Shown piece after piece: positions 498-62,438 of a DNA stretch of 64,000 nt. The stretch's first letter is position 1. Each line of letters opens with the position of its first letter. The notes under the pieces were generated by a model. That model made no database searches. It worked only from the letters and a program-made list of their open reading frames with translations, and had not been told where the DNA came from. Position numbers and translations under genes: made by a program. This stretch comes from Xestospongia muta (Eukaryota; Porifera; Demospongiae; Haplosclerida; Petrosiidae): the NCBI GenBank assembly GCA_963693285.1, contig OY848917.1, positions 1,056,501-1,120,500 on the forward strand. The letters are read 5' to 3'.

Positions 498-2457
498 AAT
501 ACCCAATAGCTGAAGAGGTGGAGCTAAGGGTCTACTGTGAAAATCAGCCAATAGCAATTTCCACATTCACTTTCTTCCAGAACATGCCACCCTCAGATAT
601 GTTGCTGCAAATACTCCACTCTCAATTGCAGTCTCAATTCCAGTTAGGTGGTCAGGGTGGACTTGGTGGTACAGGTAGTGGAGCTACTGGAGGACAGGTA
701 CACTACTACACAACTTTTAGATTTACTTCCAATGTATGTTCTTCTGTAGACTATGAGTGCTGGACACTATGCTGGTTATATCCCATCATCAATGTACCAG
801 CTTTTGTTGGGTGCATGTCGTCTTGGTTGTGAGCCCCTAGTCTATTGTCTCCTGTGTTCTCCTGTGATGGAAGGAATATCTTCAGAGCAAATGAAAGAGG
901 CACATGAATGTGCTGAAACTAATGGACATGAAGAATTAGCTGAGCATCTTATGGAATTGTTTATTCTACATGATATGGCTTTGCCACCTCAGTTGATTAG
1001 CCGTGGACCTGGTCAGTCTAAGGAGCCAGAAAAACATGTCCCTGCTTATTATGATGCATTGGATATGATAGATCAAGGTGGCAATACACCTCAAGGTAAT
1101 GTACATGTTTAGTGTATACACATGGTATGCATTTTGTGTAAGTGTATGAGCAGCAATTATTTGGTAACATTATTGACTCAGTAGTAGCTATATTATAGCT
1201 GTGATGAGGTATATGTCATAGTTATCTCTCTTTAGTACATATTAATGTATTAAAGTTGTTTTCATTATTAATTATATGTCATCTCTCTTTACAGAACGTG
1301 CTGAGACTGTTCTCAAACAACTTGTTGTTGCTGTACAATCCAGTAAGACTAAAGAGAAAAAAGAGAATGTTGAAGAAGAGGAAAAGAAAGATGAAGAGGA
1401 AGTAGTCCTTGAAGATGATGTAATCACACCTACTAATGAGATCTCTGCCACTCTTCAAGAGCCTCCAATAGAAGATTTAACTAAACAATTGGATCAAACA
1501 AAACTTACTGTTGCAAGAAAAATCTCAGTTTCTCGTCTAAAACGGCAAACCAAGTCAATATCAGGTAAACTATATTCTCAATTTAAATAAATTGACTCAT
1601 TTTAGATGGTGATGTAGATTTACCTGAAGAACCATTCAAACCAGCCACACCCCCTCGTTCATCAAGAGGTAGTTTATCTGAAAGCGGAGATGAAGTAGGA
1701 GAGCTACCCTATAATCAGAAGAAGCATCCATTTTATCAACACAGTGATGCTGACTCAGCTATTGGCATGGTAAGCACTAGATAGACACTATACATTTATA
1801 AATGTAGTAAATTTAATCTGTTTCACACACTCCACTATAAAATTAGTTTTCTTAAAGTAATATATCATCTAATTTTATAGTCTTTTGAAGAAGAGTGCTC
1901 TTCCATGATCTTCTCTGAGGTTCAACGTCGTAGGAGTTCCTCTCTCCTACCAATAGACTATGTTGGTCAAAGTGGTGATGCTATTAGTATTAAACTACCT
2001 CAAGATGCTGGAATAGAAGGTATTGAACCACACTATATGATATGATTATTTAGCATACACTTATACATGCAGCAATATCTTAGTTGATTGACATCAAGTG
2101 ATATTGTCTTATTGTTATAGTTGCTAGCAGTCTTGAGTGGGAATCTAATATTGTGGTCATTGAAGATTATCCACCAAATCAAGAATTCAAAATTTTCCAC
2201 AAAGGAGATGGTATCATTCAGGTACATACTTTTAACCACAATAGTTGCCACACCTACTAATTGTTATAATATCACTTGTAGTCTTATTTAGTTGGATAAT
2301 TTTTACTTGTATGTACTTTTGTAGGTTGGGGAACGTCTTGTTCGTAACATGTCAGTACATGAGTTTTCTGATTTGTTTCATACTGAAGCAGCCAATGGAA
2401 TGACTCTTAAGATCATTCCAAATATGGAGAAACCAACTCAACCATCTATTGAAGTAT

Positions 2458-2495
<38 letters not shown>

Positions 2496-4535
2496 TTAAT
2501 TCCTTGAGAGAAAGAATATTACTTTTATTTCTCTTATAGCCTACATCTGTTGCTATGCTTCGTCGTACTCCTAGTGAACAAAATGTTTATGATAACATCA
2601 AAACTAAGATCAACCAGCTCCCGAGTATGAGGCCACCTAAGTAAGTCTAAACTTAAATCTACTCATTCATAATGTACAATACAATGGTTCTATTAATATT
2701 AAATGTAATGGTTTTCTTCTGTAGCTCTGAGAGGACAGTTACCATTCCACGCTCACCAAATGGTTTTGGTTTTAAAATGATTGGTGGTAAAAAAGTGGGT
2801 GTGTTTATCTCTGATATACGTGCTGATGTCACACAAGTAAGTATAAAAAAAATGATCAGTTATATATTTATCTTAGATATTATATAGTCATTGATATTAG
2901 AGCATCCTTTATAATTATATTGTTGTTCTATTACAGGTATATAGTGGTGATCAAATCCTTAACATCAATGGACATAACACACAAGGACTAACATTGTATG
3001 ATGCTAGTCAACTTTTACAGAGTGTGTCTGGTGATCTTCAGTTGACTGTAGTGGAGAACCGAGCTAGTAAGTTATAACTTATAATAACTAGATGAACACA
3101 CCCACTGAGATAGTCAGCCTCCCTTATGTACAAGTACATATAATTGCACATCCTTTGATGTACCTTTATTAGAGGGACATCCTCCTTTAAACTATACAGT
3201 TTACTGTATTAAAAATCATTGATTGATTTATTTTTTCTTTTATAGAATTTTTAAGTGTACATGAGCAAGTTGAATTAGATTCCTTATACCTCCGTAGTCG
3301 TATTGACCACACCCCCATCAGTAATCGTGAAATGACACTGAAGAAAGGGTCTTTGCTTAGGGTAGTCAATACATTTGTCCATGCTCCAAATTATTGGTTA
3401 GCTTGGGCTGTTGATGAAAGAACTGGTGTGGAGACACAACTGAAGAGAATACCAAGTCCTATATAGTAAGTAGATTGTAGTTGATAGTAAATTTATAATA
3501 ATTATAGGAAAATACCAAATAATGATCATCTTGTATTCTATCATTAGTTCTATACATGTACTAATATTTCAGTATATAGACAATGTTTATATCATATTAA
3601 AGATGTCCTAATAATATGATCCATTAATATCAAACTTATTTTTATTATAATCTCTTAATTTATTTTTTAGTGCTCAAAAACAATTTGGTTATGAGGTATA
3701 TGAGCGTGTTCAACGATCTGATGTGATGTATCGCCATCCAGTATGTATTGTTGGACCACAAAGTGATGCTATTGCTGAGAATTTGTCAAAACAAGATGGT
3801 TTCTCACTTTGTAAAAATGTTGAAGAAGTCCTGGGTGTCTGTGCTAAGGTATGTAATGAGAAGATAGACTGTACATAATGAAGTACTGTATGTCCAATAT
3901 CTTACTGTTTATAATTAGAATAGTCAGCCATTTTTATGTCTTAACTATAACAAACAATGTACATAGATCACAATGATTGTTATTATATTTTCTCCTAATT
4001 ACAGGGTTCATATCATGCAGTATACAGTGTCTCTGATAAAACTACTCTTCATCTCCTTACAGCACTACAACCAATAGTTCTCCAGACACCAACTGATACA
4101 GCACCTTTAATGGAACAACTCAAGTTCACCAAGATAACTATAGATGGTAAGTAGAGCACACATGTCCCTGTTGACTCCATTTGTGTAATATCATGAGATA
4201 TTAAAGATTGTAAAGTATATGAAATATAAAGATCTAGTCATTTAGTAATGAAATGATAAATACATTTATAATATGATTTTACTATTAGCATTAATTGTAA
4301 TAAAGTGAGTTGACTTGTCAATGTTTTAGTTCCATACATGTAGTACTTGATATATTCTAATTTATACAGTTCTAATGACATCTAAACTGTGTACATCTAA
4401 TACTAAGATTACTGTATTATTATTGTAGGTTACTTGTCTGGTGATAAGAAGAGTGAGTTAGTGAGTCAAGCTATTGATCAAGTCCATCAACTTCGATCCC
4501 TTCCAGTATGGAGACCAATGGGTATTATTCATTAA
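498..4535 (+). CDS. MAGUK-A: DBB-like, PDZ, PDZ, SH3, guanylate-kinase-like scaffold (5' exons outside window)
   Basis: Exons by splice sites and phase: 498-697, 750-1095, 1295-1564, 1606-1769, 1881-2019, 2121-2221, 2325-2453, 2540-2640, 2725-2836, 2937-3066, 3246-3465, 3671-3848, 4005-4146, 4429-4535 (stop TAA); about 779 aa visible. The first two exons look like the DBB domain of BCAP/BANK: a VELRVYCENQ strand, then an ankyrin-like helix pair ending NGHEELAEHLMELF. A Glu/Lys-rich linker and a Ser-rich PATPPR segment follow. PDZ1 spans 2121-2453; PDZ2 (2725-3066) has a GFGF carboxylate loop. The SH3 (3246-3465) contains WLAWAVDE. The GuK-like domain is short and has no GxxGxGKS P-loop (it reads VGPQSDA), so it is probably a catalytically dead binding module, as in other MAGUKs. 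SH3 and GuK resemble DLG5/CARMA-type proteins most. All exons stay in frame, unlike the other copies in this window. A membrane or junction scaffolding role is inferred from the family. Confidence 0.82.
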
Positions 4536-5305
4536 CAGTTACATACTACACTAATAATATTTCCTTCAATAAATAATACACTCAATGCTGTTATAATGAC
4601 ACATTAGTTTGTACATAGAAAACATTTGTTATTGTAACTAATGACCATTTTTTTATTTTTCATGATAATAATTTTTCTATTATATTTCTTATCTTTTTAT
4701 TGTAGTTATTATTTTATTATTAATGTTACTTCTTATTTTGTATCATTGTTCTATTGTGTTGTTAAGTTTAAACTTTAAATTTATGTAATAACAACGAATT
4801 AATGATAACAATAGTCAGAAAGTAACTGAAGAGTCTTCACAGGATGAGATTATATTGAATTTTATTATATACTACACACTGATATAAACATTGTATTTGT
4901 TTCTTATAATAAGTACAGATTTAAATTTTCTAATAGTTTTTACGGAAGCTCTTGAAGCTCAATTAATCCAAGGGGAAGCCAGTGACAGCTTGCATTTTTA
5001 TTTACTAGATACTGACCTAAGGTGTGTCTTCTCTGAGAAGGCGATTCAAGTTATATAGCACCTGTTTGCTTTGTTGTTTGTCAAATTATTGTCAGTGTAA
5101 CTGTAACTGTGAAAGGTGGCTCTCCCGTCTCTGGTATCTAGTGTGTTTTCCAATATCAATCATCATTTGATTCTCTTAGAGAATATTTCATGGAATTTGA
5201 GAGAGACTATTGACTATTCACTTTAAAGTCTAAGTTAATAACGTTGTACGTCAGTGATTGCGCTCGTTTTGGAATTGTGTACACTTTCTTCTGTGACTAC
5301 TGATT
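4536..5305 (+). promoter_or_regulatory. MAGUK-A 3' flank and presumed ROCO1 promoter / 5' UTR
   Basis: AT-rich intergenic stretch. Up to about 4780 it matches the 3' flanks of MAGUK-C (from 35693) and MAGUK-D (from 62439), so it carries the shared MAGUK 3' UTR. The last 250 bases are GC-richer and include TACGTCA (about 5247), a CRE-like half site, just before the ROCO1 ATG at 5306. The exact transcription start is not visible. Confidence 0.35.
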
Positions 5306-8300
5306 ATGGCGGACCAGAGCTCACCAGACAACAGTGCTCCTAGTGTACCACCATCAAAAAGGCCTAGAATGAGTGAAAGTGGTAAGATGATCCATGTATA
5401 TTATACACCTCTTAACAGAGGAGTATAACAGTGTGTAGTATTATCATGAACTGGACTCCCACTATGATGTAGTTATAATGTCAAATACACAAAATATGGA
5501 ATTGCTAACACAATAGAAGAAGCTATACTCTTAATTTGCTTGTGTCAGGAAGCAAAATCTCTAAAAATATTAGCACTAGATCCTCCCAAGATTCTTTTCT
5601 AGATTAAACCATGGTTTAGCAGTAGTATAGTTGGTTTATGTTGTGGTTATTATTATATTTGATTGATAACTAGTAAATTGGTCTGTATATTAGTTTGTTA
5701 GTTAATATTTTAGAAATAATGTACATTGTAAGTTACCTCCAAATTATGTTTAAATTCACAAATATCTTTTCAAAGTTAAAACAGCTGTAATTATCTAGTG
5801 GTATCTTTAAAGGAATGTGTTGATCCATTTTCCTTTACTTTCATTTATACATCCATTAATTCAATTATGTATCTACTTATTTTTATTTCTATTCATTTCA
5901 CTATAGGTACATTAACTCCACCCACTTCTAATAATATCACTTCACAACCTGTCAATATTGGACAGCTAGGAAATCCAAGCCATCTAGCCACACCTTCTTT
6001 GTATAGTAATTTGTGGACTCCACAATCTGTCATTGAAACATTTAGTCAATCAAATTCTCCTATTCTTGGGAACTCCACAATCTTTCCTAATGATCTAATT
6101 AGTACTTCAAGGCACATTGTTCCTCCTGTACTATCATTATCTACCTCTTTGACTGGTTTTGTCTCACCTGTTCTCTCTTCATCTTCTGTAATGACACACT
6201 CACCCAACATGGAAACATTCTATCAACATATGAGTGGTAATGTGACCACACCCTCAGATATAATGACCAGGCAAATGGATTATCATAATCTGCAAGGTTC
6301 CCAACATCTCTTTAATCCTAACGTTACCATGACAACTTTATCCCATTTTAATTCACCTGACATTAATCAAGATATACATTATCAGACTCCACTTCATATA
6401 AATGATCCATACCATGTAGGTTCTAGTTTACCTGCTATTCAGCCACTACAGGTTGATACTAACATGTTACCACCCTCAGCCAGGATAACAACTAATTTTA
6501 GAAGTTATAGCACTCCAAGAATGGTAGCTGACTTTAATTCACCTCACATGATTCCACATGTACCTCACCAGATCCCAAACCTTTACTCAATGAACACACA
6601 CCCTATACTTCCAAGGGTTGAACTGCTGTCCCACACTAACCAAAGTAATATGATGGCTCACTTATGTAATACTGGCAACATTCCTGAAGTCTTCCATAAT
6701 AACAGACCTCCTACACTGAACCCAGGGACTACAGGATTACCATTGGAACAAATGTTTCAAGAAGAAAAGGTATCATGACATCTATTGACATTAAAGATAG
6801 TTTACATTAACAAAGAATAGCTAATGTCAGCTACTGATTGTTACTTTATTAGCCTAACTATTCTTCTCTAATTCTCTGAATATCTGTCTGTCATAGAGCA
6901 GTCTTTAATGATCTTATTCCACATTTGACGAATGTATTTTTCTTTTATAACCTCCAGACATACTTTCCATCAAATGTGCTAGTAATTTGAGTTAATTATA
7001 CTTTACAAATGATATGTGTTACTCTAATAAGTTGTTGTTATTATATTATGTTAATGTCATAACAAACACAAACAAACTGACATTTATTAAGTTATTATAC
7101 TAACCTATTGTTGTTATATATTTATATAAACTGTTAATATAGTAAGTTATATTATATTTGTTGTTACAGATATCATCAGATGAACATCTTGAAACAAATG
7201 AACTGACCACTGTGTCTATATCACAAAGTAATGATAGTGATTTTAACAGTTCCTCTGATGAAGAGGATTTTGATCCTATGATATTTGTAAGTATGTTATA
7301 TTTGTAATGTTTTATAGGAGAGCACTCATAGTATCTATTGAGTGGACTATTAGTTACTTGTTATGTCATCAATAAATTTACATGTTACCTTGTTATCTGT
7401 CAAAATATTGACTCCTCATCTTACGTACTCTAGACAGCCTATTGTCTTTTTAGTCTTATGCTCAGACACCCACTTGTTTTAAATACTATAAAGTGTATCT
7501 GGTAATGAATCCTTATCATTTAAACAACATGTTTTAGCTAAAGAACTAGAACAATGATGTCATCAACTACACAAATCATTATCAGTAAAACATAGAATAA
7601 AAGACAAATTGTAAATTGTTTATCATGTCAACAATAAATGTAGATTTTGCCTCAATGACAGTCACCATAGTGGCCCCTCCCTTCGCATATACTTAACCGT
7701 TTATAATATCCTATGTTGTAACTTGTTGAAGTTGTTATATAATATTTAATATTGTATTATATTAAAGTATTAGTGGACTGTTTGTTACTGAACAAGATAT
7801 TTAGAGAAGAGGTTAACTGTTTTGAAATATAAAGGAATTAGAAACCTTTATATTTTTTTTTAATAATAGCTTCTTTAATATCTCAATAAAGGTCAAGCAT
7901 TAGTTATTAATATATAATACTGGCCTTACTTTCTATTATACTATTAATGTTAGTTCTATGATAATATTAATAATAATATTCATAGTTTGTTTTATCAATA
8001 TATGAATAGTGTCATTTTAATAACCTCTTATTAACATTGTTTTATATCATTTCCTACTGTGATATAGTTTATAATAAAATAAGACTGATTGATTATAATT
8101 TAGTTTAGTATAAGACTTTAATAAATCATTAAATATATGTTATTAAGTTTTATTACTCTCTATTAACTAATGACATCAAATGATGTAATGACTGAACACA
8201 TCAAACTATTGTGTATATAACTAGTGTAGTCAGTATAGACTTACTTTCATAGTTGATATTGTATCTAATGAGATATTTACTTTTGATGTAGTGTGTATTT

Positions 8301-11300
8301 ACAATATTAAGTTATATAATAAGTTATTACTAGTGTCTACTTCATAGGATGCTTCTCTACATAATGCTGTTTATTATGGCAGACTTGATAAAATTAAAAA
8401 AAGAATACAAGGTGGTACAAATGTCAATGCCAGATATGAGGTTTGTCAATATAATTATAATAATATTAGTGTAGTATACAAATAGTGTATAAAACAATAT
8501 TATAGACAATAGTCAGTATGTCATTTATATTAACCACATAATTCAATGAGACAATAACTTTATATGTAGTTATTATAAAAGATTTATTACACTTATTTAA
8601 TAATTATTATTACAATATGTTACACAACATGTTATCACAAAGTGTGTAAGTCAATTGTGAGCCTCTTTCTATAGATTACTGTATAGTGGGTATTATTGGC
8701 AGACAAAATATTTGACGGTCTGCCATCAAAATAAGCAAAATTAAAATTTGGCAATTTATTAAAATATTTGTTATAATTAAATGTGGGTGGTATTAATTAA
8801 TAGTGAGTGGTACTGTGGGTACTACCGATATAACACCACGTAAACTCTCGTGAAAGTAAGATCGATGGATGCTTGACCAAGCAGTAGTGGCCTCCCTTTA
8901 TGTTTAGTAGCAAAGTTTTCACTGTGATAGATGTGTTGTTACTGTCTGCCAGCTTTTTAAGGATGCACAATGTTCTTCATTTGGCAGGACAGTTTTCTTC
9001 GTGAAATACCTAAGTAACGCCATTTACGTAGCGGGTAGCAGATGGTGATCACGTGCAGGGAGGCGTGAAAAATTATCGACAGTTACTATAGTTAGTACTG
9101 ATGTAGTAATGTACCCAGTAGTCTATGTATATGTATTTAATTATTGATATATTATATTGTGTCTCTTTATTAGGGTACTGGTGATAGTATGATCATAGCA
9201 GCTTGTCAGTCCAATGTAGATAATGTACATGTTGTTGAATTTTTAATTAGTATTGGAGGTGACGTTGATCTTCAAAATAATGTGAGTATTAATTATTAAT
9301 AATTTTATGATATTTATTATAACATTCAATTTGTGTAATGAGATTTGTTATAACATTTTACACATGTAGGTTTATATCAGTTAAACTTAAAACATCCATA
9401 ATTATATAATATTTAATGATATACTTGTCATAGTATTATGTGACAATAAGTCTAGCTATGATCTGTTTGTTTCTGATAGTCCAGTAGAATGTTATGAACA
9501 TAGCCACACCTCTAATAATATAGTTGTAAATGTACCTAATGTTTTTACATATTTTACCCAATCTATTAATACTTGTCAATATTGTTCTATTGTATATATA
9601 TTAATGAAAATGTCAGCATGTGCTTTTAAATAATTCTATAAAATGATACATATTATCATTTTATATACATGTAGTAAGTGGTAATGAACCATATAATAGC
9701 AAACCAAGGCTATCTAGTGTGAGTAGTAATGTTTGTAGTTATTTGTCCTTAGCAAGTTGTAATTTCAATATTACTTAATATTAGGTATTATTATTAATAC
9801 ATTCATTACTAATAGTCATACACAAAGATTGGTATATACTGCTATAGATATTGTTAACTTGATGTTCCATCTTGTCCATTACAAACCTCATATTTTCAAA
9901 GATAGGTGGTACTAACTAGTAAAGAATTATTACAAAATAAATAATATTAAATTTACACTGTATGTTCCACATTGTTTATAATAGCTCTATCATTTTGTTC
10001 TATTCTACCATACATATAAAGGGTTAATTTTAAGTAATAATTGCTGATATTTCATGTAAAACACACTGCAGTAATACACCTTACCATATATGGAAGAAAT
10101 TGACTTCCCTTTTTGGTGCCTAGTACACACACATGTCAGGCTGTCCTATGAATCCACTTTTTAGTGCTTGTAATGATACATGTACCAAATGGTAATTCTA
10201 TACATATTATAGTGATATCATAGGTAATTCCTATAATCACTTTGGTCTACACATGAGCAGTCCACCCACAAACACACACACATACATACACGTACCCTAT
10301 ATTTGAAAAGTTTCATTGTGAAAAAGTTCAAATGTTGGATAATGTACAAAAATAAACACACTAAGTTTGTTACACATTGAAATATTTACAGTAGGAATAT
10401 TATGGTATGTAATTGTGTTTGAAATTTTTTCAACATAAATGAACTTTATAACATGAAAGCTTCTCCATCTACAGTATATATAATCTTTAGTTGTTTTAGA
10501 TGTACCTGGTATACACACATACTAGGCTGTCTTATGAATATACTTTTTAGTACTTATCATGATACATGTACCAGGTGGTAGTTCTATACATATAGTCATA
10601 TCACAAGCAATCCCTATAATCAATCACTTTGGTCTATACATTTGTATGCACACCCACACACTCACTTGGACACACACATACACACACACACACACATGTA
10701 CATACAAAGGTTCTTGTTAAGTTAGAACTATTTTTTAAAGTCATATTTCATATGAAACATGCTATAGTAACCCACATTGCCATATAATGGATAATAGACT
10801 TCCTTTTTAGTGCTTGGTAGTCCTATAATCACTCTAGTCTGCACACACACACACAAGCACACTTCTTTAAAAATATAATATTATTTCTTTTGTTTCTCTG
10901 TTTATTTGTACCTGTCTACAAGTTTAGTGATTATAAATTCGATTTTTATAAGCAATAACTATTAATAAAGTATTTTAGTGAAGTTGTTAATTATCATGTC
11001 ACAACTATTTCCTATTCTATGATACATGACTATAATATATACTGATAATGATTAGTTTGTCAATAGACATGATACTGCTATGTAATAAAATTATTATATT
11101 ATCAATTATTGTATCTATACAACCTAGAAAACTGTTAACATGATAATAAAATATGTTTTAATAATTATATGAATTATCTCTTATTGTTAGGATGGACGTA
11201 CTGCTGTAATTTGGGCCTCTACGTATGGACATCATAAAAGTCTAAAATGTCTTATACAAGCTGGAGCCAATGTGAATATTAAAAATAAGGTAAACATCCT

Positions 11301-14300
11301 AATAAGTACTTTATGTTCTCTTTTATAACAGTAGCTTTCCTTTTAATGTAATATGTTTAGGAACATTTTATTCATGTACAGAATATAATACCTTTGTTTA
11401 CTGTGAGTACATATTGAATGTATTTGAATAGCAGATCAATCTACTGGTATAATTATTATAGCAATCTTTTTTACTTTTCCTGTGTTTAGTTTTCTTTTCC
11501 TTTATATTAATGGTAATGTAGACAATAGACTGACTTAATGTATCTGGTTATCAGTATATTTGGCCTATCAATTGTTCTTTTGTTCTACCATATAGACAAA
11601 GGGTTATCAATAGTATTACACTACATTATACCACTGTCTATTGTTTGATACAAACAGGTTGTAGTACATTTAATATATTTATAGTATATGGTCAGAGTAC
11701 TGTATTGTAGACCAAACAGGAGAGTTATAGATACAGTGTAGTGTAAAGAAAAATGAAGCAAAGGGCTACAGGTTCAAAGGTTATTTTTATCATAACATAC
11801 TGTATGTACAACACAGTACAATATAGACTGGACTATATTGTGTATGGTTTGGTATTTGATATTATGGAATTTCAAAATGATGTCATAATTCCAATATTGG
11901 GCTGTATTTGGATACAGTGCAGGTTCCTTGTCAACACTACAGGTAGTCATCGTAAATGATCAAACATTGCACTAAAAGGAATTTTATGTCATAGATAACA
12001 GAGAATTCCTAGAGTAAACTATTTTCTAACAATTCTATGGAAGTTACATACATTAACAAACAGTATTTAGCAGACTTTCCTTCCTTTTACTGAAAACCTG
12101 GGTATGAGGCTAGTAAGACTATGTGATATGAAACATATCCCTTAGTGTGTTTAACTATAGTTCATGAAAGACTAATTTTAATAAATATTAGGTGTTTCAA
12201 ATATGCAATAAGTTTTTGTTACTGAGTTGTGTAGTTGTTAATAACATTAAGTTATCCTATAACATGTGGTAGATAATCTTATAGTTACCTCTTGAAACAA
12301 ATTGTAGACTACTACACATCCTGAGTAAAAAGGTAGTATGGTGCATTTCCTTGACATTATTGGTTCTAGTATTATCATACATGACATGTCAACTCTATCC
12401 AGTAATATACTAATAGTCACATGACACATGAGTTTTGTGAGAAGAAAAGTCAATAATGAAAATCATGTATAATTCAAAGGTGTAATAACTACCATTCCTC
12501 ATTATACAGCTGTTTCATTTTGATAAGATTAATCCCAAGTGATAACCAACTACAGGTTATTACATAATTGTAACTATCCCTCTATTTCTAGTATACTAGA
12601 TATCCTTTCCAAAGAATAAATACACAAACAAGTTTGCTATGTCATTCATTCATAAGAGACGTCAAATTGTAATAATCACATGTTTTTTCACAAGGTCATA
12701 TGACCACTAATGTCACACTGATGACACACATCAGTAGACATGAATGAAAAGGTGAATGCTATGTATGTACTCTCATTATAGTTGATCATTGATTGTAAAT
12801 CAAGCTGAAGTGAAGAAGTACTCTAAAAGTATATATCCAGATCAAATTGATGATCCTTTCATATTTTTGGCTATAAAATCAAAAGATGTACCCTCTCCTT
12901 TGTAATGTTGTGTTTGACCTATTATATACACCAGTATCAACAGCTCCCGTCAAATGAATATTCTCAACAGGAGGTGAAGCAACTTCAGGAATACGTCATT
13001 AGCTCACAGATTCCAACTTAGAAAAAGAAATTTTACTTAGACAGAACAAAAAGTATTTACAGTTAGTATAACAATAACATAGTTATCAGAAACATTGCTA
13101 CAGTGTTGTAGTTACATGTATTTAACTAATAAAACAACTTTTTTAAAACTAAAACTAAAACCAAAATGTTTTACATTATAGTAACTAAAATTATAACTAA
13201 AACTAAAAAAAATCATCAGAATATACCAAAATGAAAACTAAAACTAAACAAAATTACATTTTCTACTAAAATTAATACTAATACTAAAATTATTTTCATT
13301 ACCAAAACAACACTGCTACTGTCATGACAATTAAATTATCATCAATATTACATATTTTAGTTATTTTACAACAGATACAACAAATTTTATCGATAGATTA
13401 ACATAATTTATATATGCCACACCCAGATTCTTCCATGTTACTTCACATGTACTTAGCTAGTCCAGAAAAGCTGATGAATGTATTACAACTTCAAATTATA
13501 ATATCTTACTGTTGTTGTCACATCCTACTCTGCTTGTCTATCTTGCTTTCTCCTTTGATATAATCATTCCTGTCTTCTAGTTTATACTATCTATAGTTTA
13601 CATGTTACTTCATTGTCAGTATTACATCTTTAGATAGAGAACACTGTGGATCAATGTAGCTTCAACTTTGCATCTATTCATGTTAATGTAGACCCATGAG
13701 ATTACTTGATTGAAAGGTGTGATGGTAAATGTTGAAAATATTGTGAAATAAATTTCACAATTGGTGGAAATATATGAAAACTGCCAAAAGCGTACATCTT
13801 TAAAACTAAATCCTATACAGTATTAGTAACAGTTGATAGACACAATCATCAGTATTATGTATTATATTCTATAGAGTAGTTTTTATTTTGTAACTTAGTT
13901 TCCTTTCATTGCTCATGTTAGGAATTACCTTAAAGAATATTAACATTGCTGAATCTAGAGATAATGTTTAATATGACACACTTTGTGAAAGAGTCTGTTA
14001 TATATCTAATAAAGTGTCTTTGTAGAACAGTCGTATTATATACAATATTTCTTTGAATAAACACCCTGGCATTTGTTTCTCTCACAACATTCTTAACTAA
14101 TTGTTTAAAGAAAACTGGTATTTAATCAAAGCAGCTTTTATTTATTGTATGACATTAATTGGTTAGACATAATTCTATTGTAACAATGACTGGTTGCTAA
14201 AAATGTAGCGATATAGCAATGACATATTAAAATGACGTTAATATCCTTAGTAGCAGTGACGTATTTTCTATCTAGAACATTCTAGAACCTCTGAGCATAA

Positions 14301-17300
14301 TATCTTATTGTGGCTGCTATACCATGCTCTGCTGTCCTTGTGTCTTTCTCTACTTTCTGTCATAGTCAAATCTTAATACTACTTTTACAATAATGGGTGT
14401 TTTGTGTCAGTTTATCGTAGAGAGTGAAATATTTTCAAGTTTTTAATTTTATATCATGTACTAATAAACTATGTTATTATTAAATATACATAATGTTTTA
14501 ATACAGGATAATGTCATTATACATTTTATTTGTTTTATCCATGTAGGCTGGTGATACTCCAGTTCATTTCGCTTCCTACCGGAACCATGTAGATATACTT
14601 AAACTACTAGTGCAACACAATGCACTTTTAGATGTGAAAAATGAAGTAAGTATTTTAGTGGTATTATATTTTTCTTAGATTATTCCATTGAATAATCATA
14701 AATATAACAATTGTCTGTAAGATGACTTTAATATATAAAAAGTCTATGAAAACATTAGTACTATATTCTTCACTAAAGCATACTTATTAATTATGTCATA
14801 TATTACTATGTAATTATTGTTTACAATGTCTCCTCCCATAATGTAAACATTACATAATAATACAAACAGCTTTACAAAAGATGTTAAGTATTACAATATA
14901 TATATGTAGTGGTTTCTATTGTCCACACTGACTAGAAGTATAGTACTACTTATATTGTACATGTCATTGATAACAATAGAGGGTGATCATGTAGTTATTT
15001 AAACAAGGTATTTTTAATTCATGTACAGAAATAGTAGGTTTTTTAGTTAATATCTTGTTGATGATTGCTGTACAATAACAATGTAAATCATGTATTTAAT
15101 ACACAGTATATAAAGAAGACATATTGTAAAGTATACTTTGTTCATGTTGAGAATGAACACTAACTCTGTGTTATAACTGTGGCTAGGAATGAGTTAGAGA
15201 GAAATGATTTGTACCATTTAAAACAACTCATAAGTTCACAAATGTTATGAAAAACTAGAGCACATCTGTCTAGGAAAGTTTAAAACTATAAATCCCATAA
15301 AAGTGAATGGCATTCTTCGCATTCCACCATGACTGATGTCACACATATTTTGTATATTATTAATGAACATTTATACAAGCATTCTCCAGTTTCACTAGAA
15401 AATTTTAGAAATTGTTGAAAATGCCTTTAATACTAAACATAAGATAGATTAAGAGACAACTGCAAAGAACCACTAGCTTCAATAGACTTACCAAAAACAT
15501 TCCACCTATAATACCACTCCCTAGATCATTGATGTTGTCATAATTGAAATTCCACTAAACCATAGTCATACTCAACATGAACAGAGTATACCGTATATCG
15601 GGAAACATTCGTGTCGGGATATTTTTGCAAATTAGTGAAATTGTGTTTTTTACGAATATAAATTTTGGGAATTTGTACCATGTTTCCACCCACTTACAAT
15701 TATTACCGTTTGACTACACCCTAAACACGTTTTCTTACACCTGGTCTCTACAATGGAAGAGACGTTCGAAATGGAATCCCATATGAAAGAATACCATGTT
15801 TATAAAGAGGTATAAACATCCAATGGAGAAGAAATCATTTTTTTACTAACTATTTGCCACATGGTCACCCATAATTGAATTTTCTGCTTAACCATTTGCC
15901 ACACCCATAATTGTAAGAAATTGGCAAGAGGATATTTTTACAAAGGAGTTAAATTCGTAAAATTCGCAAAAAATTTGCAACACGAATGTTTCCTAATATA
16001 CGGTAGTAGGCAATGATGTCATTACAATTACACTCTTATAATGAGATTTGTTTGTTATGATCACCTTTTATATTACTTACCTTAGCTTCTCTATGTAGTA
16101 TCAGTTTGAGCATATGACTCAATTTATCTGTCAAGTTGTGAAATATACTCAGATATGATGAAACTCTCTCTTTGTTTAAATTGTACTTAACTCTAAGCCT
16201 GTTGATAGTGACATATTAAACTAATAGGTATACTCTGTCTGACTTGAGTTGAACTACCTAGACATGTAAATAACTTTGCTTTTTTACGTGCTATCCACAT
16301 GGAACTTATACCAATCAATTCAGCTTGCAAATGTGGATTTTATATATAAAATTTGGCTCTCTAGTGCTACGAGAAAGTAGCAAACTATAAACTCCATACA
16401 TTTTCAATGGAATACCTTCCTCATACTTCAAATTCCAGACCTTCGAATAACACTTTTCACATTGAGAAGTCAGCCGTGTGTCACGTGGCAATTCACAATT
16501 ACAGTTCTAATTATATGAACAAATGTTCTATTATAACAATTATTACTATTAAAATAATAATGAGATATTGTCTTTTGCGATTTAAGGCAGCTATAAACCC
16601 ACCATGGTTCTGAAAAGAACCTTTTAACTAAGAAGAAAGACCGAGAATGTCTAGAACTATTCGTCATCAGAACTATCAGATTGATCAGAATCATCAGACT
16701 CATCTGAGTTTGGAACCTCAGTTTCTTTTCTCTTTGCATCTTTACGAATGGGTGGAAAAATGTGGTCTGTTCGCATGACATTCACGTGAACAAGTAATGA
16801 ATAACATTAAAATGTACTTCAGTGTTAAGTGTATAAAGTAGATGAGAAAATACCTCACCTTACATTCCATACATAACAAACTTTATTTTTAATGAAGGGC
16901 TCAACTCAACTCGGACAGAATATAGTTTGTATTTTTGATATCTATACTTCAAAACTAATAACATACTCTATACTTACTTGACATTCTTGTTACCATGTAA
17001 TACCAACTTGTGATATATTTATTCCTTTTACATCATTTGTCTTGTCTGTCATTTATTAGACATGTGACAATTATCAGACTAAATTTGACAACACTTAATA
17101 TTATAGTACTTCTCTTATATTGTGTCCATTTAATTTAGTGACACTACTGAGATAATAGTCAATTATTATATTTACCAAATTATATACTAATCACCTGTTT
17201 TTGTCATGATTATGATTTAACAAGATATCTTCTTTTATTTCAGTATGGTTATACACCTCTTCATGATGCCTGCAGTAATGGATCTACTGAAGCAATAGCA

Positions 17301-20185
17301 TTGTTGCTATCTACTGGTATTATTAATCCAAACGAAACTAACAATAATAACCAAACTCCCATTGAATTGGTTAAGCCTAATGATAAAAATCGCTTCGAAA
17401 TTTTAAAGCTTTTTCTTCCATTTGAACAATGCCGTGAAAGCTATCCCATTGATTCCTATGCCAAAGTTTTCTTTTGTGGAAATACAACAGCTGGAAAGAG
17501 TTCTTTAGCTGCAGTTTTAATTCAACGAGCCAAGAAGGGTCACGACCACAAATTTAATCTATTAGAATGTGTCACTGATGTGGTACCATTAACAGCTGGT
17601 ATAGCTACACATACACTACAATCACATGAGATTGGTAATGTCGTTCTTTATGATTTAGCAGGTCACCGAGAATACTATAGTAGCCATACTGCAGTACTTG
17701 AGCATTTGATGTTAAGATCACCAGCTGTATTTTGTGTTTTATCTAAGCTTACTGATAATGATAATGATATAGCAAGTGATCTCTATTATTGGCTCAATTT
17801 TATTGAGAATATTAATGCTAGAGTGACAAAGCCTTCTCACATTATTACTGTTGGAAGCCATGTTGATTTGAAAGATAGCAGTGTAGAGTTTAATGTCATT
17901 CTTGATGACATTGTACGAGAAATTGTTCGTCGCCAGAAATTTAGTGGTTTTGCAGCTGTAGACTGTCATCGTCCAGGTGGTAAAGGTGTTAAAGAGCTTG
18001 TATCTCTCCTAGCTGAAAGTTGTAAAGCTGTACTGGACAGATCTGACAGCATTAGTATCTATTGTCATGTTTTGTATGCATTTTTACTAACACTTGATAT
18101 GGTAGCCATTAGCTTGCAGCAGCTTTGTGCATTGCTTGAAGAGAAAAATGATCCATCTCTTCCATCAAATGAATCAGCTTTGTTAGAATTTTTGACCATT
18201 CTTTCCGACAAAGGTCTTATTTTATTTTTAAAAAATGAAGACTGTGAAAGCTGGATTATTATCAAGAAAGAGGCTCTTCTTGAGGAAGTCAATGGTACCC
18301 TATTTGCTCCATCTGCTATTACACGTGTTTATCGACAGATTGCCAGTAATACTGGAGTGGTTTCTACATCTGCTCTGAGAAATCTTTTTAAAGATAAATA
18401 TGATATTAATATGTTGATATCATTTCTAATTATTCTCGAGTTTTGCCATATCCTAGATCCTGATACACTTGAAGAGATTTCAACTAATCTCTCACCTTCA
18501 TCTCCTGTAGAAACAGAAAAATTGCTCTACATTCCTGCTCTTGTACAGGCAGAGCGTCCTTCTGACGTGACTTTGGATAAAGGAATTGGATGGTGTCTTT
18601 GGTGCAACAATCCTCATCAATTTTTCTCTACTCGTTTCCTTTTTCGTTTGCTTCTTCATCTTGCCTTTAAATATTGCCTGCCAAAATGTAATGTTGGGCA
18701 AATGAAAGGTGGATCTGAATTAGCTAGACGTTGTACTTTGTGGAAAGATGGTATTTATTGGATTAGTAGAGGTGGAGTAAAGGTGATTGTTCAAATGAGT
18801 GAAAATAATCGTTGTATAACTGTACTTACTTCCAATGGTGAAGCATCAATGGCTTGCCAACTTCAAAGCAAAATTATCAATGATATTTTTAACCTTCAGA
18901 AGGACACCTGTCCTTCCTATGACATCACAGAATGTTTGATATCTCCATCTGATATTGGTAGATCACTGACCAACAGAATTAGTGATATACCAGTGTTTGT
19001 GATGAGAGATGTCACTCATGCTATGCTAACTAATACAAAGTATGTCACCGATGACAGTGGTACAACAACAGTAGAGGTTGCTAGTCTGTTTTTTGGAAAT
19101 GAGCCTTTTAGCAAAGTTTGCCCAGAATTTATTAAAGTTTTATTCGATAGTGTTAAGTCTTCGGAGCTTCTCCCATCAATTTATCTTGAGTATTTGCGCT
19201 CACGTTGCTCTGCAATAATGAAATTGTGTGCTTTGAAGGATTATACCTTCTTGTCTGTTAGAGAACATCTCAATAGTCACAGTATGTTTGCTGGACGTGA
19301 TCCTTTAGTAAGTAAATATTTTGATATTTTTGTACTGTCAGTTATTGTCTATTTGTAGACTGTTGTCTTTCCTAAACTCACTGATGATGAAATACAAATA
19401 TACTCAAAGGAATTTATTGATATATTGAAATCCTCTCCAGGTATGTCTAATACTTTATCTATTATAACATAACACTGGTCAACTTAGTTTGATGTAGTAA
19501 TGTTTGTATTTAATAGTTTTGTTTGTGCAATGTAAATGAATTTAATTATATTAGGCAATAAACACACTTAGTATGTTTGTCAAGTAATTTGACATTTTAA
19601 TATTGTTGAATCAACACTTACTCTCTTTGAAAATAACAAACAAGCCACAGTTTGCTTTTAAATCTTCTACTAAAATATATGCCCACTTCATATATTTTTG
19701 AAAACTTTAATATTAAATGTTCAAAGCAGCTGTTTTTTGTTATGATATCTGAAAGTATATGACACTGTAGTTATTTATGTTCTTTTACCATAGTAACAGG
19801 AGAGAACAGCTGTATTAAAAAATTTATTTATTTTCCTAAGTTATGTAAGTTATAGAGTTTGTTGTATTGTTATTATCAACATTGTTTAGCTGAAAAGCCT
19901 GAAAGAGTTAACTTGTTGAGTAAACTCACAGCTATTGATGCATCATGGCGCAGTATTGGCAATGGTCTTGGCCTATCTTACAATGATCTTCAAGGTTTAG
20001 CTGAATCCAATATCTCTAATCAAACAAAACTAGATCATGTCCTTCAAATGTGGCTAAACATGGATGGTGAATCTACTCCTGTAACTTGGAAAACAATTAT
20101 AGATGTCGTCAAGGGACCTCTTGTTGAAAACAAAGCTCTCGCTATTAAGATATATCAAGACTTGAAAGAAGATAGCTCTAAATAA
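5306..20185 (+). CDS. ROCO1: Ser/Thr/Pro-rich N-terminus, ankyrin repeats, Roc-COR GTPase, death domain
   Basis: Exons: 5306-5381, 5907-6769, 7170-7286, 8348-8440, 9174-9281, 11191-11289, 14547-14645, 17244-19307, 19359-19440, 19794-19844 (51 bp, possibly a cassette), 19890-20185; about 1315 aa. The first exon has a basic PSKRPRM cluster. The next encodes about 288 Ser/Thr/Pro/Asn-rich residues, and the third is acidic (SSSDEEDFDPM). The four exons from 8348 to 14645, plus the start of 17244-19307, each carry roughly one ankyrin repeat (TPVHFAS, TPLHDAC). Roc: G1 GNTTAGKSS (about residue 564), G3 DLAGHREYY (about 622), G4 VGSHVDL (about 690). COR follows (LSDKGLILFL; LWCNNPHQFFSTRF). The last exon is a death domain (WRSIGNGLGLSYNDL and a TPVTW motif). 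There is no kinase or LRR, so it resembles DAPK-type ROCO proteins minus the kinase. A GTP-regulated death-domain signalling role is inferred from the family. The ATG at 5306 is chosen because its exon joins 5907 in phase. Confidence 0.85.
8677..9080. mobile_element. TIR element (MITE), 3'-truncated copy in ROCO1 intron
   Basis: The left end TACTGTATAGTGGGTATTAT and the following 400 bases match the complete element in ROCO2 (39311-39820). Here the right terminal repeat and about 280 bases of adjacent intron are missing, so sequence matching 40020 onward follows directly. Confidence 0.7.
10130..10865. repeat. Degenerate long tandem repeat with CA microsatellites (ROCO1 intron)
   Basis: A block beginning GGCTGTCCTATGAAT at about 10139 recurs about 387 bases later as GGCTGTCTTATGAAT (10526). 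A third partial copy, around 10780-10860, includes CCTATAATCACT. Each copy ends in a CA-rich tract (10268-10290, 10660-10700, 10845-10860). The same structure is present in ROCO2 at about 42235-42970. Confidence 0.65.
13138..13310. repeat. A-rich AAACTA low-complexity tract in ROCO1 intron
   Basis: Imperfect repetition of AACTAAAACTA. A matching tract lies at 46915-47075 in ROCO2, where an opposite-strand counterpart (TTTAGTTATAG repeats, 44985-45310) also exists. Copy 1 therefore looks like one flank of a larger element whose other flank has been lost. Confidence 0.5.
15589..16005. mobile_element. Complete 417-bp TIR element (MITE) in ROCO1 intron
   Basis: The left end TACCGTATATCGGGAAACAT is mirrored at the right end, whose reverse complement reads TACCGTATATTAGGAAACAT. 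The inverted similarity extends through ATTCGTGT and TTTTGCAAATT/TTTTGCGAATT. There is no coding capacity. In ROCO2 only the right half remains (49187-49387). Confidence 0.85.
16340..16800 (-). other. Repeat-like segment with a short acidic-tailed minus-strand reading frame
   Basis: On the minus strand a frame from about 16800 down to a TAG near 16661 reads ...MRTDHIFPPIRKDAKRKE and ends in SDESDDSDQSDSSDDE. That acid-serine tail looks like a protein C-terminus, but I do not recognise the protein. The left part (GTGCTACGAGAAAGTAGCAA) has a hairpin-like arrangement and resembles dispersed repeat sequence. A parallel copy lies at 49735-50190 in ROCO2 with several replacements. It may be the tail of a transposon-borne gene; the element ends were not found. 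Confidence 0.3.
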
Positions 20186-22108: not shown

Positions 22109-25100
22109 GGTGGTGGCTCAATGGCATTTGTCTTCTACCAACCACTTCCACATGGACGAAAAGCTACTTTATACCAAAAACCAATCTAAATTACTACATT
22201 TGTCAAGTAGCTATTGATGAAAACCCACACACCCTCTCATGTGCTATCCCAAGTAAGTTTGATGACAATATCTAAAACAATACTGAAAGTAAATTATGAA
22301 GACATTGTGTATGGGCAGACAAATTAGTTTGATGTTCATAGCAATATTTCCTAAATAGTATGATAGCCATGCTTGCATTCACTCTAATATGATGTAACAG
22401 TTTATACATGAAAGCACAGCAATAGTTTTAGATAAGTCCCTTTAAAGGTCATAGTACACTTTCATCAATTGTACTAAGAAGGCAGTTTTGTTTATTGGAT
22501 AGTATTTTCTTTTGTCTTTAAGAATACCTATATTAACAACATGAAAAGGAGACTTATTTTATTCATTAGCAACTATTTACTGAGTATTAGTGTCAAATTC
22601 ATAACAGAATTTTTCATAATAAACTGACAAAATGTTGTCCCCTTATAATCAAAACATTACTTTGTTACCATAGTAAATAATTAAAGGATACTTTAAGCAT
22701 ATAATTTTCTGTTGAAGAAGTAATTGAAGTGTCAGATATTTCATTGTCCACATTAAAGAAGTATAACCATCAAGTCAGGATTAGTACCTTGTACCTTGTG
22801 ATGTATTGCCTCATATCATGATCAACAAATACTGTAGATAAAGGTGTGGTCATGTGACAGACAGTATGTTACCTTGTGACTGGAAGTAAAACATTGCCTG
22901 CAATCATTAGCACATTAGCTATACTTACTGTTTGTCAGCACCGTATACCATATTAGTTCTAATTAAAGGAAATGTTTACATTGAAGTCTTTTGAATTTTA
23001 TCCAGGTAGTTAAGGAATTATGTCAGTATGTACATATGCATATACAAAGCTGCATTGATTATTGTATAATGTCAGTTATTGTCATTGTATGTCATACTGT
23101 GTAATAATCTCTTGCTATGAATATAGTTAAAGTATTTTTCCCAATTTCTGAACAGAAAAAATGTAGGGAGAATCCAATAGTAACCTGATTCCTTTAATTT
23201 GGCAGGAATTTAAAACTCAAATACATTTTTATATTATAATAATTATGTTGAAAATTACAAGTATTGCATTATGTGGAGTTCTTTACTTGTGTTGTTATGG
23301 TTACCTTATTTGGTTTAGAAATAAACAGCTCTAGATTAATTACATACACTGTACATGTCATAGGTATTACTTACTACCTTTCTTTTATTAGAATACCCAA
23401 TAGCTGAAGAGGTGGAGCTGAGGGTCTACTGTGAAAATCAGCCAATAGCAATTTCCACATTCACTTTCTTCCAGAACATGCCACCCTCAGATATGTTGCT
23501 GCAAATACTCCACTCTCAATTGCAGTCTCAATTCCAGTTAGGTGGTCAGGGTGGACTTGGTGGTACAGGTAGTGGAGCTACTGGAGGACAGGTACACTAA
23601 ACAACTTTTAGATTTACTTCCAATGTATGTTCTTCTGTAGACTATGAGTGCTGGACACTATGCTGGTTATATCCCATCATCAATGTACCAGCTTTTGTTG
23701 GGTGCATGTCGTCTTGGTTGTGAGCCCCTAGTCTATTGTCTCCTGTGATGGAAGGAATATCTTCAGAGCAAATGAAAGAGGCACATGAATGTGCTGAAAC
23801 TAATGGACATGAAGAATTAGCTGAGCATCTTATGGAATTGTTCATTCTACATGATATGGCTCTGCCACCTAAGTTGATTAGCCGTGGACCTGGTCAGTCT
23901 AAGGAGCCAGAAAAACATGTCCATTCTTATTATGATGCATTGGATATGATGGATCAAGGTGGCAATACACCTCAAGGTAATGTACATGTTTAGTGTATAC
24001 ACATGATATGCATTTTGTGTAAGTGTATGAGCAGCAATTATTTGGCAACATTATTGACTCGGTAGTAGCTATATTATAGCTCTGATGAGGTATATGTCAT
24101 AGTTATCTCTCTTTAGTACATATTAATGTATTAAAGTTTTTTTCATTATTAATTATATGTCATTCTCTCTTTACAGAACGTCCTGAGACTGTTCTCAAAC
24201 AACTTGTTGTTGCTATACAATCCAGTAAGACTAAAGAGAAAAAACAGAATGTTGAAGAAGAGGAAAAGAAAGATGAAGAGGAAGTAATCCTTGAAGATGA
24301 CGTAATCACACCTACTAATGAGATTCCTGCCACTCTTCAAGAGCTTCCAATAGAAGATTTAACTAAACAATTGGATCAAACAAAACTTACGGTTGAAAGA
24401 AAAATCTCAGGTTCTCATCTAAAACGGCAAACCAAGTCAATATCAGGTAAACTATATTCTCAATTTAAATAAATTAACTCATTTTAGATGGTGATGTAGA
24501 TCTACCTGAGGAAGCATTCAAACCAGCCACACCCCCTCGTTTATCAAGAGGTAGTTTATCTGAAAGTGGAGATGAAGTAGGAGAGCTACCCTATAATCAG
24601 AAGAAGCATCCATTTTATCAACACAGTGATGCTGACTCAGCTATTGGCATGGTAAGCACTAGATAGACACTATACATTTATAAATGTAGTAAATTTAATC
24701 TGTTTCACACACTCCACTATAAAATTAGTTTTCTTAAAGTAATATATCATCTAATTTTATAGTCTTTTGAAGAAAAGTGCTCTTCTATGATCTTCTCTGA
24801 GGTTCAACGTCGTAGGAGTTCCTCTCTCCTTCCAATAGAATATGTTGGTCAAAGTCGTGATGCTTTTAGTATTAAACTACCTCAAGATGCTGGAATAGAA
24901 GGTATTAAACCACACTATATGATATGATTATTTAGCATACACTTATACATGCAGCAATATCTTAGTTGATTGACATCAAGTGATATTGTCTTATTGTTAT
25001 AGTTGCTAGCAGTCTTGAGTGGGAATCTAATATTGTGGTCATTGAAGATTATCCACCAAATCAAGAATGCTTCGTCGTACTCCTAGTGAACAAAATGTTT

Positions 25101-26260
25101 ATGATAACATCAAAACTAAGATCAACCAGCTCAAGGCCACCTAAGTAAGTCTAAACTTAAATCTACTCATTCATAATGTACAATACAATGGTTCTATTAA
25201 TATTATATGTAATGGTTTTCTTCTGTAGCTCTGAGAGGACAGTTACCATTCCACGCTCATCAAATGGTTTTGGTTTTAAAATGATTGGTGGTAAAACAGT
25301 GGGTGTGTTTATCTCTGATATACGTGCTGATGTCACACGAGTAAGTATTAAACACCGTAGTTGTATTGACCACACCCCCACCAGTAATCGTGAAATGACA
25401 CTCAAGAAAGGGTCTTTGCTTAGGGTAGTCAATACATTTGTCCATGCTCCAAATTATTGGTTAGCTTGGGCTGTTGATGAAAGAACTGGTGTGGAGACAC
25501 AACTGAAGAGAATACCAAGTCCTGTATAGTAAGTAGATTGTAGTTGATATTGTACCATGACTAGTATGAATTGACCAATCAGATTGCTTTAATTGAGGTT
25601 GATAAATTTCATATCAACCTCTGATTGTTATCAGTCAGGTTGACAATTTTTTTAGCGGAGGTTGACAATTTTTTACTAGTAGCGGTAATTCAAAAATAAA
25701 TAATAAATGAATCGCTAGATTCAATATCGACAAGACAATATCGGTCAGGGCGTGGTCAAATAAATGGGCGTCTACCTGAGAAAGAATAATTATAGTCCAA
25801 CTCGTCTTCCATTTTGAATTTGCGTCGTTAGAATAAAAAAAACGTTGCTAGACTACCTTTATATAGCAGGTTTGTGCGTGATATTGTTGCCATGGCAGAC
25901 CATTTCATGGTACAAGCCGGTTATATACCCTCGGTACGGTTTCCATGGCATTTATCAACCTCGCAACTTCGTCGCTCGGTTGATAAATCTCATGGAAACC
26001 TTTACCTCGGTATATAACCTATACGTAAATTTATAATAATTATAGGAAAATACCAAATAATGATCATCTTGTATTCTATCATTAGTTCTATACATGTACT
26101 AATATTTCAGTATATAGTCAATGTTTATATCATATAAAAGATGTCCTAATAATATGATCCATTAATATCAAACTTATTTTTATTATAATCTCTTAATTTA
26201 TTTTTTAGTGCTCAAAGACAATTTGGTTATGAGGTATATGAGCGTGTTCAAATAAAATAA
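22109..26260 (+). pseudogene. MAGUK-B: decayed paralog of MAGUK-A
   Basis: It aligns exon by exon with MAGUK-A and adds the preceding DBB-like exon (22109-22251, GGGSMAFVFYQPLPHG). Lesions visible against copies A and D: a 4-base net loss near 22165; a 10-base loss in the second DBB exon (about 23735); a deletion joining the first half of PDZ1 to the exon starting CTTCGTCG (about 25067), which removes the rest of PDZ1; and a deletion joining the PDZ2 donor region to mid-SH3 (about 25350). The first GuK exon ends at about 26250, where MAGUK sequence stops and ROCO-type sequence begins, giving a stop at 26258-26260. A 480-bp insertion also lies in the last intron. It cannot encode a full MAGUK. 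Confidence 0.85.
25547..26027. mobile_element. 480-bp insertion with a 101-bp near-perfect palindrome
   Basis: Absent from the same intron in MAGUK-A (after 3490) and MAGUK-D. It contains a small hairpin (GAGGTTGATA...TATCAACCTC, about 25595-25625). A long palindrome at 25919-26019 has a left arm starting GGTTATATACCCTCGG and a right arm ending CCTCGGTATATAACC, around a loop at about CAACTTCGTCG. There is no reading frame of interest. It is probably a non-autonomous foldback element. Confidence 0.7.

Positions 26261-34867: not shown

Positions 34868-34871
<4 letters not shown>

Positions 34872-58180: not shown

Positions 58181-62438
<4,258 letters not shown>

Follow-up and report, generated by a model that had tools for sequence, protein, structure and literature searches.

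Hypervariable ankyrin exons between near-uniform introns in a tandem array of ankyrin-ROCO-death genes of the sponge Xestospongia muta

Why should the coding exons of neighbouring gene copies differ more than the introns that separate them? The question is raised by two genes of Xestospongia muta, ROCO1 (8348-20185, counted from the first ankyrin exon) and ROCO2 (38985-56258), which are tandem copies on the + strand of a 64,000-nucleotide stretch of DNA (hereafter the window, G000:C1:1056501-1120500, from a genome of 158 Mb in 28 contigs). A sequence-only reading of the window had claimed that the ankyrin exons of the pair were far more diverged than their introns, and had taken this for a variable recognition surface combined with a conserved output. 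Coordinates given without a contig are window positions. The following parts were distinguished.

7170-7286, + strand: ROCO1 short acidic exon of 39 codons, phase 0, upstream of the ankyrin exons; AG/GT borders, within a block aligned with ROCO2; the 5'-most exon read
8348-8440, + strand: ROCO1 ankyrin exon 1, N-cap-like repeat, hypervariable (exon versus flank divergence in 14 paralogs)
9174-9281, + strand: ROCO1 ankyrin exon 2, hypervariable; its changes in length keep the frame (15 paralogs)
11191-11289, + strand: ROCO1 ankyrin exon 3 (9 paralogs)
14547-14645, + strand: ROCO1 ankyrin exon 4 (16 copies in 15 genes)
17244-19307, + strand: ROCO1 large exon with ankyrin repeat 5, Roc GTPase and COR, class A (Pfam Ank and Roc, RocCOR fold match; donor GTAAGT at 19308)
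17244-17342, + strand: ROCO1 ankyrin repeat 5, inside the large exon (codons 1, 3, 8, 11, 12 and 20 variable in 15 paralogs)
17800-19307, + strand: ROCO1 dimorphic block, comprising the Roc C-terminal part, COR and the C-terminal part, class A (dS between classes A and B)
19359-19440, + strand: ROCO1 short exon 3' of the large exon (splice signals only)
19890-20185, + strand: ROCO1 death-domain exon with stop codon (Pfam Death 22.4 bits; 3 residues differ from ROCO2)
38985-39074, + strand: ROCO2 ankyrin exon 1
40112-40219, + strand: ROCO2 ankyrin exon 2
43303-43401, + strand: ROCO2 ankyrin exon 3
48764-48862, + strand: ROCO2 ankyrin exon 4
50638-52698, + strand: ROCO2 large exon with ankyrin repeat 5, Roc and COR, class B, the last ~300 bases of a third type (3' end placed as in ROCO1, at the Val-Ser codons that precede the stop)
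55963-56258, + strand: ROCO2 death-domain exon (Pfam Death 22.3 bits, cut-off 22.6)

ROCO1 belongs to the ROCO GTPases by its Roc domain. Pfam Roc scored 25.3 bits in the large exon (E 1.9e-5), just below the cut-off of 27; a profile match to LRRK2 Roc chains was obtained at E 4.4e-5, and the P-loop is visible. A COR domain follows directly, as judged by fold: an AlphaFold model of the large exon (pLDDT 75) matched the RocCOR tandem 3dpu (E 2.6e-15, 582 columns) and also 3dpt, a structure of COR alone. Pfam gave no COR match in ROCO1 and a weak COR-B match in the relative P0092 (14.8 bits, cut-off 27). The gene is closed by a death domain (Pfam Death, E 1.3e-4, 22.4 bits, cut-off 22.6). Exactly five ankyrin repeats were found in each of ROCO1 and ROCO2 when ankyrin frames were scanned. 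The large exon matched no families other than Ank and Roc at E up to 0.01, and so neither NACHT nor NB-ARC. No kinase domain was detected in the frames scanned, in a gene read from the acidic exon onwards.

Recounting the differences between ROCO1 and ROCO2 reproduced the earlier hand counts. Exon 2 (9174-9281 versus 40112-40219) differs at 18 of 108 bases, and the downstream intron at 3 of 80 aligned bases. In exon 1 (8348-8440 versus 38985-39074), 21 of 90 aligned bases differ, with 10 replaced codons, four changed silently only and one codon deletion; next to it, 0 of 96 aligned intron bases differ, as the claim of an identical intron would have it. Over exons 1-4, the figures of 31 replaced and 9 silent-only codons proved exact, and the death-domain exon does differ at three residues (4 of 297 bases). 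For all five repeats together, differences were counted at 70 of 496 exon bases versus 16 of 796 flank bases (p = 4e-17, Fisher's test); taken by itself, repeat 5 gave 9/100 versus 1/50, which is not significant (p = 0.17). Non-exon sequence as a whole differs at 321 of 8519 aligned bases (3.8%). Examined in 60-base steps, most introns show 0-4 differences, and the worst steps of ankyrin exons 1 and 2 show 15 and 17. The large exon is conserved to ~17790, beyond which the difference is 7-45% per 100 bases with short conserved patches.

The two genes are part of a larger family. An own-genome search with 8028-9942 as the query returned a series of additional copies on C1, between ~729 kb and 1157 kb. 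The large ROCO exon and ankyrin exon 4 each occur there at 15 sites, in order, and exon 3 at nine, giving a tandem array of 15 genes over ~441 kb (measured between exon 1 of U1 and the U15 large exon). Array genes are labelled U1-U15, ROCO1 being U12 and ROCO2 U13. A second cluster, at C1:9.2-9.6 Mb, is more diverged, and C9 and C8 carry additional copies. Exon 3 is absent from six array genes (U3, U6, U8, U9, U10, U11). A scan of four of these for other ankyrin frames found some in U9 and U10, one weak piece in U3 and none in U6. U7 carries two copies of exon 4 (C1:918.7 and 919.9 kb) whose variable codons differ, a gain of a repeat module.

Other observations concern the surroundings of these genes. 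At least 154 Roc-domain matches, counted by exon, were obtained in this single genome, which looks like a large ROCO complement. A class-A-like ROCO exon on C9 (L042, G000:C9:3502807-3504980) is interrupted by stops and looks like a decayed copy. The spacer between ROCO1 and ROCO2 contains a tandem array of ~1.35 kb with a period of 44 / 204 bases (29697-31045). Another repeated segment of the unit was recognized at 1-4799, 22895-26251, 34868-36430 and 58981-63173, its copies being mostly 95-99% alike. A frame at 25161-25526 is PDZ-like by eye, with no confirmation from Pfam. The unit also contains a second kind of gene. In it, a death-domain-like exon (52965-53243; Pfam Death below its cut-off at 19.3 bits) is followed by a 730-codon open frame (to 55591) with a P-loop-like GPARVGKTS motif; this frame had no Pfam match at E 0.01 and no PDB sequence match at E 1.

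Across the array, the ankyrin exons differ by 9-18% among copies, and the flanking introns mostly by 1-4%. The mean pairwise difference (p) was 0.175 for exon 1 (14 copies; flanks 0.028 and 0.011), 0.153 for exon 2 (15 copies; 5' flank 0.035, 3' flank mean 0.136, median 0.050), 0.091 for exon 3 (9 copies; 3' flank 0.010, 5' flank mean 0.126, median 0.030), 0.121 for exon 4 (16 copies, U7 having two; flanks 0.044 and 0.030) and 0.107 for the repeat 5 part of the large exon (15 copies; flank 0.013). The raised means of the exon 2 3' flank and the exon 3 5' flank arise because some copies diverge strongly in the intron stretch there. Hits below 72% identity (one exon 3-like hit in U3) and a minus-strand copy of exon 4 on C9 were left out of these alignments. 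Apart from these two flanks, exon divergence stays above intron divergence when the array loci are aligned, over 14, 15, 9, 16 and 15 copies of repeats 1-5, and the frame is open in every copy aligned. The comparison of 15 genes supports the exon-intron contrast more strongly than the ROCO1/ROCO2 pair could. Its extension to the second cluster mostly failed. An excess is present there in exon 1 (0.141 versus flanks of 0.060 and 0.089, five copies), but no clear excess was observed in exon 2 (0.047 versus 0.037 and 0.039, four copies) or exon 4 (0.125 versus 0.113 and 0.134, four copies).

Codon by codon, the array copies show a constant framework with a few wild positions. Codons 1, 3, 8, 12 and 33 of exon 4 carry 6-8 residues each, with many two- and three-base changes, and codons 6, 9, 10, 13, 15, 16 and 20-23 show no base change in 16 copies. 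Over the five repeats, the most diverse positions in designed-ankyrin numbering are 14, 10, 3, 13, 5 and 2. Positions 2, 3, 5, 13, 14 and 33 are taken here as those randomised in designed ankyrin proteins (DARPins), in numbering attributed to Binz et al. (2003). That DARPins are randomised at surface positions is stated in the available text of PMC8683736 and PMC10542815. Amino-acid diversity at the six positions was 0.499 versus 0.149 elsewhere, a difference reached by 7 of 20,000 random six-position sets and by none of 20,000 within-exon shuffles over the five repeats, in agreement with the earlier impression that changes cluster at variable ankyrin positions. The correspondence has two exceptions: position 33 is randomised in DARPins and constant here, and position 10 belongs to the DARPin framework and is variable here. 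Distinct peptides are encoded by 14 of 14, 15 of 15, 9 of 9 and 16 of 16 copies of exons 1-4, and by 14 of 15 copies of repeat 5. Among 56 aligned relatives from public assemblies, drawn from 120 proteins listed out of at least 876 found (with the 7995 best candidates scored), repeat 5 is complete in seven, and the same positions vary (1, 3, 8, 11, 12).

The near-identical introns provide an internal neutral standard, so that selection can be measured codon by codon. Pooled diversity was 0.027 in introns (without the exon 2 3' flank and the exon 3 5' flank, where some copies diverge strongly). At the first two codon bases it was 0.308 at DARPin-randomised positions, about eleven times the intron variation, and 0.094 elsewhere. 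The third base of constant codons gave 0.077, and 0.014 in exons 3 and 4 taken together. These values bear on the idea that the ankyrin exons are drifting freely, through relaxed constraint or as pseudogenes. The stop-interrupted relative of the large exon on C9 is the kind of copy it predicts, but drift should not outrun the intron rate, the array ankyrin exons are open in each aligned copy and many of their codons show no change. We reject it for the array because the rates exceed the intron level, and we give it close to no credence.

Silent diversity at constant codons separates the exons into two groups. It is at the intron level in exon 3 (0.012) and exon 4 (0.017), and above it in exon 1 (0.087), exon 2 (0.067) and exon 5, the repeat 5 part (0.173). 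In exons 3 and 4 the excess thus consists of replacement changes only, which argues for selection and not for exon import; in exons 1, 2 and 5 the raised silent diversity means that part of the excess is older variation or exchange. Taking silent excess as proof of exon import was considered, and is contradicted by exons 3 and 4. The same silent sites count against a mutation process targeted to the exons, germline or somatic, with selection acting only as a filter. Sharp exon borders and the many two- and three-base codon changes would be expected of such a process; it should, however, also hit neighbouring silent sites and intron edges, and these are spared in exons 3 and 4. We regard it as very improbable.

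Codon models were fitted with our own script, in which FastTree branch lengths were scaled per exon, not re-optimised, and exon 2 codons split by a gap were counted as missing. The likelihoods are therefore approximate, and with this proviso M2a was preferred over M1a for the ankyrin codons with 2dlnL of 119.5, omega being 6.2 for 17% of codons. The site-wise check proposed in the sequence-only reading thus places about 17% of the ankyrin codons near 6, not below 1. Twenty sites were above 0.95 in M2a, only one of them in repeat 5, and at these top sites 549 and 248 of 1758 codon pairs are two- and three-base changes, respectively. The one-ratio omega of the ankyrin codons is 0.78. Exon 3 gave dN 0.109 and dS 0.054 (9 paralogs), and exon 4 gave dN 0.146 and dS 0.087 (16 copies). 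By NG86, dN/dS falls below 1 in exons 1, 2 and 5. The claim therefore depends on the site pattern and on introns as the standard of comparison, and not on ratios for whole exons. Because recombination can mislead site tests, the test was run again on random trees, in three sets (2dlnL 174, 200 and 208), and on trees built from the flanking introns (438). Control codons of Roc and COR, compared within class A and within class B (see below), gave no significant signal (2dlnL 4.7, where the 5% limit is 5.99). We rejected the choice of trees as a source of artefact, since random and intron trees agree and the control is not significant. Diversifying selection on the ankyrin surface codons is strongly supported, and the replacement rate exceeds the neutral one at sites that, by the ankyrin register, are putatively ligand-facing.

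The exon types are also reassorted among the array genes, largely independently of each other. Distance matrices of the ankyrin exons, compared in 10 pairs, gave r from -0.13 to 0.33, none significant (the smallest p, 0.058, belongs to exon 1 versus exon 2). Of the 21 matrix comparisons in total, uncorrected, four had p <0.1 and two <0.05 (exon 1 versus the middle ROC block, p 0.035; exon 3 versus the first ROC part, p 0.040), so independence is not complete everywhere. The ankyrin difference hardly depends on the Roc-COR class: within and between classes, respectively, it was 0.166 and 0.184 for exon 1, 0.158 and 0.148 for exon 2 and 0.118 and 0.120 for exon 4; for the middle ROC block it was 0.063 and 0.217. 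U8 and U10, which are not neighbours and belong to different Roc-COR classes, have closely similar exons 1 and 2 (0.086, 0.074). In U5 and U10, again not neighbours, repeat 5 is nearly the same (p 0.01). The probable route of this reassortment would be unequal exchange or gene conversion.

The back end of the genes exists in two main versions, which have diverged deeply. From ~17800 the large exon splits across the array into class A (U1, U5, U10, U11, U12, U14) and class B (U3, U4, U6-U9, U13, U15). U2 is B-like to ~18290 and then unlike both classes in the part examined, which ends before the C-terminal part; class comparisons and the Roc and COR control were made on six class A and eight class B genes, leaving out U2. 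Between classes, dS was 0.69 in the Roc C part, 0.67 in COR and 1.01 in the C-terminal part, versus 0.097 in the Roc N part just before; omega was 0.20-0.26 (Roc C part, COR). Roc and COR were shown to be under purifying selection within each class. Along the row of 15 tandem genes the two main versions alternate, and the borders of the blocks are sharp (17800-19307; ~51194-52698). The last 300 bases of class B comprise further types, that of ROCO2 being unlike all others, and U3, U4, U6 and U15 are A-like again in the last 100 bases. A copy at 9.49 Mb is nearer B first and nearer A from ~18690 to 19090. Judging from these sequences, the block types seem to be older than the separation of the two clusters, and the two main versions are possibly long-kept alternative signalling halves. 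The earlier picture of a variable surface with a conserved output accordingly holds for the surface, where diversifying selection is strongly supported, but only in part for the back end.

Exon-sized gene conversion from older, divergent paralogs, with introns homogenised and looking young for that reason, could produce divergent exons with no special selection. It would fit the reassortment of exon types, the similarity of repeat 5 in U5 and U10 and of exons 1 and 2 in U8 and U10 despite their separation, the raised silent diversity in exons 1, 2 and 5, and the Roc-COR blocks, which have clearly been exchanged blockwise. Importing whole exons would, however, bring silent differences along, and the constant-codon silent sites of exons 3 and 4 are intron-like while the adjoining variable codons differ at all three bases. 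Nor would conversion explain the common register of variable positions in five repeats. The silent uniformity already disfavours it for exons 3 and 4, and as an account of the array we find it distinctly unlikely. The suggestion that exon-sized exchange contributes stands to the extent that exons are reassorted and that exons 1, 2 and 5 have elevated silent diversity; exchange is not the source of the hypervariability in exons 3 and 4.

Taking selection and reassortment together, we consider it probable that the locus is a combinatorial array of ankyrin-ROCO-death sensors, with reassorted exons, an ankyrin surface under diversifying selection and a DARPin-like, gene-specific binding face. Ankyrin exon types are reassorted among the genes, whose introns are nearly uniform, and diversifying selection keeps changing the codons at positions that face a ligand in designed ankyrin proteins. 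Each gene may then encode a cytosolic sensor whose repeats form its own binding face for a foreign, altered-self or partner protein. Binding might change the Roc-COR GTPase and bring death domains together, leading to a cell-death or immune response. The two main Roc-COR versions are mixed with the binding faces; they may differ in the partners to which they couple, or be selective in dimerisation.

The role of such sensors is perhaps in immunity, allorecognition or self/non-self discrimination. Binding faces that diversify family-wise toward endogenous partners or symbionts, by subfunctionalisation and not against pathogens or non-self, should leave the same sequence signature, and nearly every gene having its own face suits this as well. 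By an argument of fit, a death-domain output and two mixed back ends agree better with defence or recognition, and we hold the endogenous alternative to be unlikely. On the sensor reading, a bolder version is offered tentatively: the array may be a non-NLR, non-Ig repertoire, a natural DARPin library in which selection on single codons, independent modules and two ancient Roc-COR back ends serve self/non-self or pathogen sensing. Natural variation that falls largely on the positions engineered in DARPins would point to a recognition repertoire built on ankyrin repeats that belongs to none of the NLR, TLR and immunoglobulin families, and the array would provide a defined locus for studies of self/non-self recognition.

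The best-known ROCO proteins are LRRK2 and DAPK1. Human DAPK1, of a family with an N-terminal kinase, has ankyrin repeats, Roc-COR and a death domain in the same order as here; it is not known as a hypervariable multigene array. Snake-venom toxin genes and plant NLR clusters, which are unrelated protein families, provide other cases of divergence that is higher in exons than in introns, or of diversifying selection in a tandem array. DARPins share the variation at surface positions 2, 3, 5, 13 and 14 on a constant framework, the difference being that this is a natural gene family. Large families of proteins that have death-like and TRADD-N domains, in many cases together with ankyrin repeats, are described for the sponge Amphimedon and serve as a parallel only. 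Among the open-literature matches listed, a set with most subscription papers outside it, no hypervariable ankyrin-ROCO-death array is reported, and the literature search returned no related report of introns more conserved than exons.

The closest parallels in the literature searched are brown-algal LRR-ROCO genes and fungal NLRs with ANK repeats. Brown-algal LRR-ROC-COR genes have been proposed as immune receptors (Teng et al., 2024, PMC11378527; Zambounis et al., 2012, as cited there). According to the available text of PMC11378527, they share with this array the ROCO GTPase, a repeat per fixed-phase exon, exon shuffling and diversifying selection on ligand-facing repeat positions. Their LRR exons, however, measure 72 bases in phase 2, an arrangement that ROCO1 lacks; its repeats are ankyrin, four of the five on their own phase-0 exons of 93-108 bases. 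In the same text, no ROCO domain combination besides LRR-ROC-COR is described, whereas a death domain follows here, and near-uniform introns beside hypervariable exons, as measured here, are not reported there. Fungal NLRs with ANK, TPR or WD repeats are likewise repeat-based variable sensors, built on a NACHT/NB-ARC core instead of Roc-COR (Dyrka et al., 2014, PMC4986451). In the part of that paper available, the ANK positions under positive selection lie, with one exception, on the concave face and hairpin. Repeats within a fungal gene are described there as nearly alike, suggesting concerted evolution, whereas repeats within a gene differ here: 13 of 33 residues are common to ROCO1 exons 3 and 4 (by eye), and similarity outside the variable codons is instead seen between corresponding exons of different genes.
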